From Chondrocystis sp. NIES-4102 (lineage in GTDB: Bacteria; Cyanobacteriota; Cyanobacteriia; Cyanobacteriales; Xenococcaceae): a stretch of DNA of 64,000 nt. The stretch's first letter is position 1. Each line of letters opens with the position of its first letter. The notes under the pieces are model-generated. The model did not search any database and had not been told where the DNA came from. It saw only the letters and a program-made list of their open reading frames with translations. Shown in pieces: positions 17,558-19,011 of this stretch. Both the position numbers and the translations under genes were made by a program. The stretch is taken from the NCBI GenBank assembly GCA_002368355.1, contig AP018281.1, positions 3,224,001-3,288,000 on the forward strand, written 5' to 3'.

Positions 17558-17739
17558 TGATCGTAAAGATCTATTAGCCGTTTTTAGTTGGGTAAACTTT
17601 CTTGTAATAGTAGTTCCAAGCTATATGCTATCAAGACCCCTACGGCTATAGGCTTCTTGTTATTCTTTATTTACTATCTGCTTAGTAATTAAAGTATTTT
17701 AGCGATCGCAATTATCTATAAAGTAAAATTCTGCCTTAT

Positions 17740-17800
17740 TTGTAAAGTGATACTTGACACTTTAATTTCTCTGCTTGTAAAGTGGTACTTAACAGTTAAT
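17740..17800 (+). promoter_or_regulatory. Two direct repeats overlapping a promoter, likely Xre operators
   Basis: TTGTAAAGTGATACTT (from 17740) and TTGTAAAGTGGTACTT (from 17775) are 35 bp apart, and both contain the palindromic core AAGT-NNN-ACTT. The first also forms AAAGTG/CACTTT. TTGACA (17754-17759) lies inside the first repeat and TAAAGT (17778-17783) inside the second, spaced 18 bp, so a sigma-70-type promoter is masked by both sites. The start codon of the HTH-ClpN gene is 10 bp further on. Autoregulation is inferred. Confidence 0.65.
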
Positions 17801-17810
17801 AGAGCAAGGA

Positions 17811-18476
17811 ATGAAAAACCGACTAAAGGAATTTAGGAGAATACATCAGTGGTCACAAGCTGATCTCGCCAGAAGATTAGAAGTAAGTCGTCAAGCAATT
17901 AACGGCTTTGAATCTGGTAAATTCGATCCAAGTTTAGATATGGCTTTCAGAATTGCACATCTATTAAATGTCAAGATTGAAGATATTTTTATCTATGAGG
18001 TAAACAATCCCATGCAGGCATTAGTAAAACAAGTAAAAGGTTTTTTGGGCTTAGAATTTGGTTTTGAGCGATTTACTGAAAAAGCAATTAATGTCATTAA
18101 TTATGCTCGTAATGAGGCAGTAAGAAGAGGGAGTAATCAAGTTACACCAGAACATTTATTATTAGGTTTATTAGCCGATGAAACTACAACTTCGGCTCAA
18201 TTACTTAAGGGTAATGGTGTTAAACGCAGTCTAGAAATTAATGAACATTCTTTTGAAAACCTTGAGAAGGTAGAATTAAATTCGGAGATTAAATTTATTC
18301 TAGAATTAGCTTTGCAAGTGGTTCGGTTAAGGGGTGAAAAATCGATTGGAACTGAACATCTTTTGTGGGGTTTAGTGCGTTTAGCAGAAACAGGTAATGC
18401 TGCTATATGTAACTTGTTGCAACAATATGAAATAGATATTCAATCATTAAATCAGCAATTAACACAAGAAGTTTAA
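17811..18476 (+). CDS. Xre-family HTH regulator fused to a ClpA/ClpC-type N-terminal domain
   Basis: The 221-aa protein has two parts. Residues 4-60 are a compact Xre-type helix-turn-helix (WSQADLARRLEVSRQAINGF, then DPSLDMAFRIAHLLNVKIEDIF). Residues about 86-210 are a Clp N domain with its two internal repeats: FERFTEKAINVINYARNEA...VTPEHLLLGLL and EIKFILELALQVV...GTEHLLWGLV. The start FERFTEKAI is the start of ClpC itself. There is no AAA+ module, so it cannot unfold proteins. The Glu residues equivalent to the phosphoarginine-binding Glu of Bacillus ClpC appear kept (Glu114, Glu182). It probably binds DNA and senses the same adaptor or degron ligands that ClpC recognises. GGA directly abuts the ATG, so translation initiation looks weak. 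Confidence 0.85.
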   Translation: MKNRLKEFRRIHQWSQADLARRLEVSRQAINGFESGKFDPSLDMAFRIAHLLNVKIEDIFIYEVNNPMQALVKQVKGFLGLEFGFERFTEKAINVINYARNEAVRRGSNQVTPEHLLLGLLADETTTSAQLLKGNGVKRSLEINEHSFENLEKVELNSEIKFILELALQVVRLRGEKSIGTEHLLWGLVRLAETGNAAICNLLQQYEIDIQSLNQQLTQEV

Positions 18477-18499
18477 TTAATAGTAATTATTTTAAGAAA

Positions 18500-18540
18500 T
18501 AAACAGCATAATAACTAACTGCAATAAACCCACAATAAAG
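18500..18540 (-). pseudogene. 41-bp duplicate of the 3' end of the DUF445 gene
   Basis: Positions 18500-18540 match 19301-19341 at 40 of 41 bases. The second copy is the last 13 codons and stop region of the DUF445 gene (encoding [11 protein letters not shown]). The first copy has no reading frame around it, so it is a scar of a duplication or replacement flanking the 760-bp segment that holds the membrane-protein gene. Confidence 0.8.
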
Positions 18541-18636
18541 TATTTAGTTGTTTTCTATAAGTATATTCGTGCTAAATTGCCTATGACAGACCATTTCACG
18601 ATATATATAACTTAGTTATCCCTTTCAGGTAAATAT

Positions 18637-19011
18637 ATGTCTGATCAATCTGCTCAAAAAGCTCGAAATATATTGCTCACTATGTTTTTACTGCAAATCG
18701 TTTTAGATATTATCCTTGTGGCGATCGCGAATGATTTGTGGGCTATTGGTCGTATCTTAGTAACCATTGTGATAATGTATTTTGTGTTACAAGGGCGCAA
18801 ATGGGCTAAATGGGCTTTAATAGGTATTTTGAGTTTTTTAATTGTTGCTTTAATTGCCTTAGTTATTGCTCTTTATTCAAAGCTTTCCAGCATAATCATG
18901 ATAGGAAGTTTGTTATTAGCATTTCTTAGTGCAATTATTATAATTTATTTGCTTCGTAGCCAAAATTTAAATCACTACTTCTTATATAAAAGACAAGCTA
19001 GTAATTTATAG
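18637..19011 (+). CDS. Four-helix membrane protein, unknown function
   Basis: The 124-aa product has four hydrophobic segments (about residues 11-32, 35-52, 58-80, 84-107), with positive residues in the RKWAKW loop and at the C-terminus. No family motif is recognised. It lies 160 bp after the HTH-ClpN gene on the same strand and within the segment bounded by the 41-bp direct repeat, so it may have arrived together with that segment. No ribosome binding site stronger than CAGG is seen upstream. Confidence 0.6.
   Translation: MSDQSAQKARNILLTMFLLQIVLDIILVAIANDLWAIGRILVTIVIMYFVLQGRKWAKWALIGILSFLIVALIALVIALYSKLSSIIMIGSLLLAFLSAIIIIYLLRSQNLNHYFLYKRQASNL

Follow-up and report, generated by a model that had tools for sequence, protein, structure and literature searches.

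The window, that is, the whole stretch of 64,000 nucleotides of Chondrocystis sp. NIES-4102 DNA that was analysed, carries a gene for a small protein that joins a DNA-binding domain to a double Clp_N domain. The following features are placed at this locus, the operators and the promoter being predictions.

17741 to 17759, no strand assigned: predicted operator O2, palindrome TGTAAAGTGATACTTGACA, from the palindrome scan and upstream scoring
17754 to 17783, forward strand: predicted promoter, with the -35 box TTGACA in the right half of O2, an 18-bp spacer and the -10 box TAAAGT in the left half of O1
17776 to 17794, no strand assigned: predicted operator O1, palindrome TGTAAAGTGGTACTTAACA, 35 bp downstream of O2, from the palindrome scan and upstream scoring
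17811 to 18476, forward strand: coding sequence of HTH_3 plus double Clp_N (short form), ATG start, 221 aa, from the frame, Pfam and the AlphaFold2 model
17823 to 17984, forward strand: Xre/HTH_3 DNA-binding domain, residues 5–58, from Pfam; nearest solved relatives 9k3w and CylR2
17997 to 18062, forward strand: linker of low model confidence, residues 63–84, from AlphaFold2
18066 to 18230, forward strand: Clp repeat 1 with a shortened end, about residues 86–140 (limits by eye), from Pfam, the model and the alignment
18273 to 18461, forward strand: Clp repeat 2, about residues 155–217 (limits by eye), from the model and the alignment

Our analyses confirmed that this protein, referred to here as the fusion, consists of an Xre helix-turn-helix (HTH) and a ClpC-type double N domain without an ATPase, as the initial annotation had proposed; Pfam, the AlphaFold2 model and Foldseek agree on this. 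Residues 5–58 match HTH_3 at 51 bits (cut-off 23; E 1.5e-13), and the C-terminal part matches Clp_N in two stretches at 61.2 bits (cut-off 20.7; E 1.1e-16), the top one covering profile positions 1–40 of 53. Pfam found no AAA+ domain in the 221 residues, so that the AAA+ module of the ClpC unfoldase is missing, and the ClpB/ClpA-type NCBIfam matches were confined to the N-domain part and lay far under their cut-offs. The model (mean pLDDT 83.3, pTM 0.64, from a 32-row alignment) shows the HTH, a low-confidence linker (residues 63–85) and then two Clp repeats. The predicted fold points the same way as the profile, since the top Foldseek matches are ClpC N domains, with 2y1q first (E 9.2e-7; TM 0.77 by target and 0.49 by query), at a high rmsd of 5.5 Å over 140 columns that does not fix the packing of the two repeats. 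The HTH part matched 9k3w (target TM 0.94) and CylR2 (0.89). According to the model and the alignment, the first Clp repeat lacks a helix that precedes the inter-repeat loop in ClpC.

The C-terminal part is nearer to plant ClpC (Arabidopsis ClpC1, 60 bits) than to the PDB chains named ClpC2, 8b9o among them (M. smegmatis, 49 bits; M. tuberculosis, 45 bits; a further entry, 32 bits), while a Bacillus-type ClpC scored 53 bits and M. tuberculosis ClpC1 44 bits; residues 84–217 are 39% identical to the ClpC of the same genome. In a tree of 47 N domains, built without actinobacterial ClpC2, L067 and the stand-alone HTH proteins, 25 short forms grouped together (support 99/99) and fell on the ClpC side of the branch leading to ClpB. 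The ClpC and fusion domains together were split from two ClpB domains with support 100/100, in a tree with a long ClpB branch, a long-branch warning from the tool and an unsettled bootstrap. A ClpB-type N domain was ruled out as the source of the fusion by this tree, with the same long-branch and bootstrap caveats, and by the bit scores. The genome also contains a second, diverged ClpC-like gene (G000:C1:1077188, in L003) with an open frame of 788 aa, in addition to the standard ClpC.

Among 388 genomes of the window's class (taken as Cyanobacteriia), 26 matched at E <= 1e-30, and loci were built for 12 of these. Twenty of the matching genomes carry a short full-length form (one with an internal stop) and three a form that is long by frame length; two matches are cut by a contig end or an assembly gap, and one is an HTH–pentapeptide form. 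A phylum search of 386 genomes yielded seven full-length fusions among the matches listed, including the window's own and one copy with an internal stop. Named genomes, some of them the same as in the phylum search, provided at least 33 fusion loci, namely 24 short (L039–L062, one broken) and nine long by length (L063–L066, L068–L072). The short-form family is sparse in cyanobacteria. L041 sits in a metagenome-assembled genome (MAG) titled Tatlockia (Pseudomonadota), perhaps through a binning error, and the remaining titles are cyanobacterial. The HTH has a median dN/dS of 0.057 (136 usable pairs out of 276) and Clp_N one of 0.158 (137 usable pairs), low values which indicate that both parts are under purifying selection. 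L047, L011 and L205 represent a single gene, located at a contig end, whose internal stop may reflect decay or a sequencing error. It was used neither in the tree nor in the alignments or operator counts, and L047 entered the neighbour clustering up to its stop. L071 was excluded from two alignments.

Two further architectures were found beside the short form. The long form (L014, L015, L063–L066 and L068–L072) has about 400 aa arranged as HTH-Clp_N-Clp_N-Uma2, and the Uma2 part was tested by profile in two proteins, L014 and L015 (E 8.9e-23 and 1.4e-17). One MAG holds both a long form (L066) and a short form (L054). The gene at L067:8001-8717, also seen in L212, shares the HTH and the double operator, but pentapeptide-like repeats, recognised by eye rather than by profile, stand in place of Clp_N, and its sensor part seems to have been swapped.

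The initial annotation aptly pointed to 17740–17800 as a stretch on which to test DNA binding, because two palindromes lie there. The palindrome scan of the window found two sites, each on both strands, thus four matches where 0.35 were expected, and only one of 100 shuffles reached four. We then scored the 160 bp upstream of 25 short-form genes and L067 (26 rows) with a pattern derived from the window, which favours the window's row and no other. Both 19-bp palindromes were present in all 26 rows (O1 at 13/14 or better, O2 at 11/14 or better), with a start-to-start spacing of 35 in 21 rows and 34 in five, and a score of 11 at both sites was reached by only 2 of 10,400 shuffled upstreams. Of six additional, distinct short-form loci, L196, L199, L201, L206 and L207 have both operators; in L213, which an assembly gap interrupts, O1 is kept (12) but O2 scores only 8/14. 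Overall, 30 of the 31 scored short-form upstreams have both palindromes, 34–35 bp apart. A further block upstream of O2, at about -130 to -70, looks conserved by eye in L042, L043, L050, L052, L053, L062 and L067.

The predicted promoter TTGACA-18-TAAAGT, with 10 of 12 matches, is the best of four promoter-like sites in 17558–18800. Shuffles of this stretch yielded a mean of 5.5 such sites, and the argument for the promoter therefore rests on conservation. The fourth base of O1 is A in 26 of 26 rows, whereas the palindrome, and O2 in 21 of 26, have C; this asymmetry is explained by the O1 base being the second position of the -10 box. All nine long forms have at least one palindrome of the GTNAA-N6/7-TTNAC type within 260 bp upstream, against 0.057 expected per upstream with a pattern shaped post hoc, and in seven of nine a TTGACA promoter match starts inside the palindrome. 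No site of 11/14 or better was found within 200 bp upstream of 45 stand-alone HTH relatives (L088 was excluded for its short upstream sequence); these genes seem to lie close behind another gene, so that their operators may lie further up. Judging from these sequences, the fusion is very likely an autorepressor that acts through two operators over its own promoter.

The operator appears to be devoted to the fusion gene. Its own genome contains no site with at most one mismatch apart from the two of the gene itself, and the five sites with at most two mismatches (two its own, three others) compare with six for a reversed-pattern control. In 18 genomes of relatives, searched for 18 of the 25 short-form loci (L039–L062 and L013), 34 distinct sites with at most one mismatch were found, of which 30 lie at the own promoter and four elsewhere, against one in the reversed control. 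Three of these four lie inside unrelated ORFs and one overlaps no ORF of 80 aa; no gene is shared between any of them, and no common target was seen. A wider regulon, considered as a candidate, was not seen by this site search in the own genome or in the 18 others. The neighbourhood was likewise rejected as a guide to function, save for clpB upstream in two related loci: clustering of 537 ORFs from 36 loci, with flanks of up to 8 kb on each side and less in several of them, found no family in more than five of the 36 besides the fusion gene. With no conserved neighbourhood, and with the sites at the own promoter, the only visible target in cis and in trans is the fusion gene itself. A hydrophobic ORF of 124 aa (window 18637–19011) follows the fusion on the same strand; it has no family match over cut-off and is absent from the neighbour families common to at least three loci.

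A phage or defence origin was rejected: none of 54 viral-contig loci matched past query residue 115, hence none holds a full-length fusion, in a scan with HTH peptides that an HTH-less Clp_N protein would escape. The PADLOC matches and most PHROG matches of the fusion begin in the HTH. PHROG 35667, of unknown function, matches the Clp_N part (window 18051–18437, residues 81–209, E 3.3e-9), and by this similarity some phages may carry a Clp_N-like protein. No plasmid record covered 80% of the fusion query. Clp_N matches occur in two plasmid-collection regions, from Tsukamurella and Nonomuraea, both unannotated at the match; the Tsukamurella one lies behind lsr2, which we take to be the place of clpC1.

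What the N domain might bind was approached through five ClpC1 residues of the ligand groove, F2, F80, K85, E89 and L92. The two Phe and the Glu of the ClpC2 cyclic-peptide site were mapped here to F2, F80 and E89, the offset of E89 being inferred; F2 and F80 also appear in PDB titles, K85 was taken from PMC12583610, and L92 comes from the title of a mutant structure. All five residues are the short-form majority at their positions, as compared with 41 of the 120 other positions invariant in ClpC (one-sided Fisher p 0.006); the set was chosen from publications and PDB titles that concern another clade, and L92 is itself not invariant (8 of 10 in the ClpC set). F2 has its equivalent in 21 of 25 short forms, F80 in 19, K85 in 22 and E89 in 24; the equivalents of T6 and K8, near the first phosphoarginine (pArg) site, are each kept in 23. 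Our comparison thus indicates that the groove residues are preferentially kept in the short forms, as far as sequences can tell; the long form has largely lost E89 and L92. The window protein keeps four of the five, with K85, E89 and L92 present in repeat 2 and F80 replaced by Leu, and its groove may differ on account of this Leu and of the helix missing from repeat 1. R122, an M-domain contact in S. aureus ClpC (PMC12583610), is replaced by an acidic residue (Asp or Glu) in 22 of 25 short forms. In the same ClpC, K85 is reported to anchor the resting state to AAA1 (PMC12583610); its retention despite the absence of AAA1 suggests ligand binding, and ClpC binding in trans would also be compatible with it. 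Peptide action on the ClpC N domain is described in an EMBO J 2025 paper (PMC12583610).

Taken together, these observations suggest that the fusion is an autorepressed sensor and decoy, of the ClpC2 kind, for ligands of the ClpC N-domain groove, a reading to which we give an even chance. A dimer of the fusion would bind the two palindromes that hold its own -35 and -10 boxes and keep its level low. By analogy with ClpC2, a ligand of the ClpC groove, such as a cyclic or antibacterial peptide, an unfolded segment, a phage protein or an adaptor, would bind Clp_N and free the fusion from DNA. The resulting surge of free Clp_N domains would presumably compete with ClpC for the ligand and shield it. 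Among the inferences, release by a ligand of the groove and protection of ClpC have the best support, an adaptor role being their main rival. As for the initial annotation, which saw a regulator turning ClpC signals into transcription, the sensor half remains the natural reading of the ClpC-like ligand-site residues, whereas a wider transcriptional programme does not, as the sole detected target is the own promoter.

The main rival proposes a self-levelled adaptor or anti-adaptor: the HTH would fix the concentration, and the free Clp_N domain would bind ClpS1/ClpS2, NblA or ClpC and tune ClpCP proteolysis with no ligand-driven derepression. Autorepression with no other detectable target suits such a level-setting loop, two ClpS genes are present in the genome, and ClpS and NblA are listed as adaptors in a review of cyanobacterial Clp systems (PMC7966870). 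Moreover, clpB lies upstream on the same strand in two of the four loci of one clade of the tree, at L013:1486-3637 (about 145 bp away) and L061:4584-8663 (about 650 bp away). However, the loss of R122 with the groove kept speaks for small or unfolded ligands more than for docking to ClpC, and a sparse distribution would be odd for a tuner of core proteolysis; we consider this role possible, at about half the weight of the sensor and decoy.

A sensor of proteotoxic stress, in which unfolded proteins titrate Clp_N off the DNA and the induced protein holds its clients, is a less probable explanation still. It draws on the mild heat induction of ClpC2 and the holdase role that its authors suggest from casein assays (PMC10030653), and on the groove of the ClpB/Hsp104 N-terminal domain, which binds unfolded proteins (PMC12583610), but no heat-shock gene was seen at the few other operator sites examined. 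That ClpCP sets the stability of the fusion, delivered through its Clp_N domain, an idea of the initial annotation, appears quite improbable: the domain could meet ClpC adaptors, but to our knowledge Clp_N receives adaptors and is not known as a degron. Most improbable of all is a regulator of a distant regulon that reads ClpC signals, phosphoarginine included, into wider transcription, because the retained pArg Glu pair and the four sites off the own promoter against one in the control are offset by the 30 of 34 sites at that promoter, by the lack of a shared gene among the other four, by the same Glu pair in a ClpB and by a PF00217 search whose negative outcome extends to its controls.

The phosphoarginine question deserves detail, since the initial annotation had stressed the two Glu residues. 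They are indeed kept, E114 in 24 and E182 in 25 of 25 short forms, but Glu occupies both positions in one ClpB of the same genome as well, and the pair is therefore not specific; a phosphoarginine reading is not supported. The arginine kinase profile PF00217 had no match in the own genome, nor in any of 14 control genomes.

Returning to the sensor and decoy, a broader proposal, which we hold more tentatively, is that cyanobacteria independently built a ClpC2-like alarm and sponge: an Xre autorepressor with a copy of the ClpC N domain as its sensor, induced by, and neutralising, peptides or phage proteins that attack ClpC. The HTH and double operator would then be a modular cassette with swappable sensors, and as part of the same tentative proposal these would be Clp_N, Clp_N with Uma2 (in a related HTH branch) and pentapeptide repeats. 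If this is true, decoys that protect the ClpC protease arose on more than one occasion, using DNA-binding parts unrelated to each other, which would imply that ClpC is widely under attack from natural peptides or phage proteins, in cyanobacteria as elsewhere. The promoter of the fusion gene would then offer a reporter already at hand for ClpC-binding natural products yet to be discovered; with so sharply defined a double operator, the decoy idea can be tested directly.

Several known systems share parts of this architecture. The ClpC unfoldase has the same double Clp repeat, whereas the fusion lacks the AAA+ and M-domains, has a shorter repeat 1 and has R122 replaced. As expected for an Xre/HTH_3 regulator, the fusion has an HTH_3 domain over the gathering score and a predicted palindromic operator. 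Stand-alone PbsX/CylR2-type HTH proteins of about 65 aa (L073–L118) have an HTH mostly 47–65% identical to that of the fusion, among the matches listed, but no sensor domain. The plastid protein ClpT resembles Clp N domains and is, like the fusion, a free Clp accessory protein without an ATPase; we know of no DNA-binding domain in it. ClpT is listed as exclusive to algae and plants, where it associates with the ClpP ring (PMC7966870). The accessible part of that review of cyanobacterial Clp systems names no HTH-Clp_N protein (PMC7966870), and our searches of the open literature found no prior description of one.

The closest functional parallel is mycobacterial ClpC2, an autorepressing Clp_N protein that cyclomarin releases and that acts as a sponge, keeping the drug away from ClpC1 (PMC10030653). 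The remark in the initial annotation that no regulator of this build had been described was accordingly too strong, since ClpC2 is an autorepressor with a Clp_N sensor, although it holds for an Xre HTH in that role, as far as the accessible text of that paper goes (PMC10030653). In M. smegmatis, the small proteins ClpC2 and ClpC3 reportedly weaken the effect of degraders directed at ClpC1. Some other reports count against the decoy reading. Three peptides bound ClpC2 in M. tuberculosis and only a cyclomarin analogue induced it (PMC12913811), so that binding to Clp_N need not relieve repression, and the cyclomarin pocket is reported to be absent from the ClpC of Gram-positive bacteria, so that the chemistry of the pocket is not uniform.

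ClpC2 (PDB 8AD9, 8ADA and 8B9O; 252 aa) and the fusion (221 aa) are both small proteins with a C-terminal Clp_N domain and no AAA+ module, and the ligand-site equivalents of F2, F80 and E89 are common to ClpC2 and most short forms. Repression of the own promoter, shown for ClpC2, is predicted for the fusion. As ClpC2 operators, CGTCAAC-n5-GTTGACG palindromes cover the -35 and -10 boxes, and many ClpC2 genomes have two such palindromes (PMC10030653). Both proteins thus have 19-bp palindromes with a GTCAA-N7-TTGAC core overlapping these boxes, a geometry that the embedded -35 box may explain by itself. The DNA-binding part differs. The ClpC2 authors assign DNA binding to the Clp_N domain, with arginines R185 and R189 (PMC10030653), and dimerisation to an N-terminal four-helix domain (8ADA; PMC10030653), whereas the likely DNA binder of the fusion is its CylR2-like Xre HTH. 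HTH_3 takes the place of the four-helix domain at the N terminus, in a comparison by sequence rather than by fold, and no ClpC2 chain matched the fusion HTH at E up to 10 (phmmer). As the working plan is that of ClpC2 but the DNA-binding module is not, we do not claim membership in ClpC2. To conclude, the autorepress-and-sponge plan was already known from ClpC2, and the firm sequence results of the present work are the domain architecture and the predicted double operator by which the fusion family appears to control only itself.
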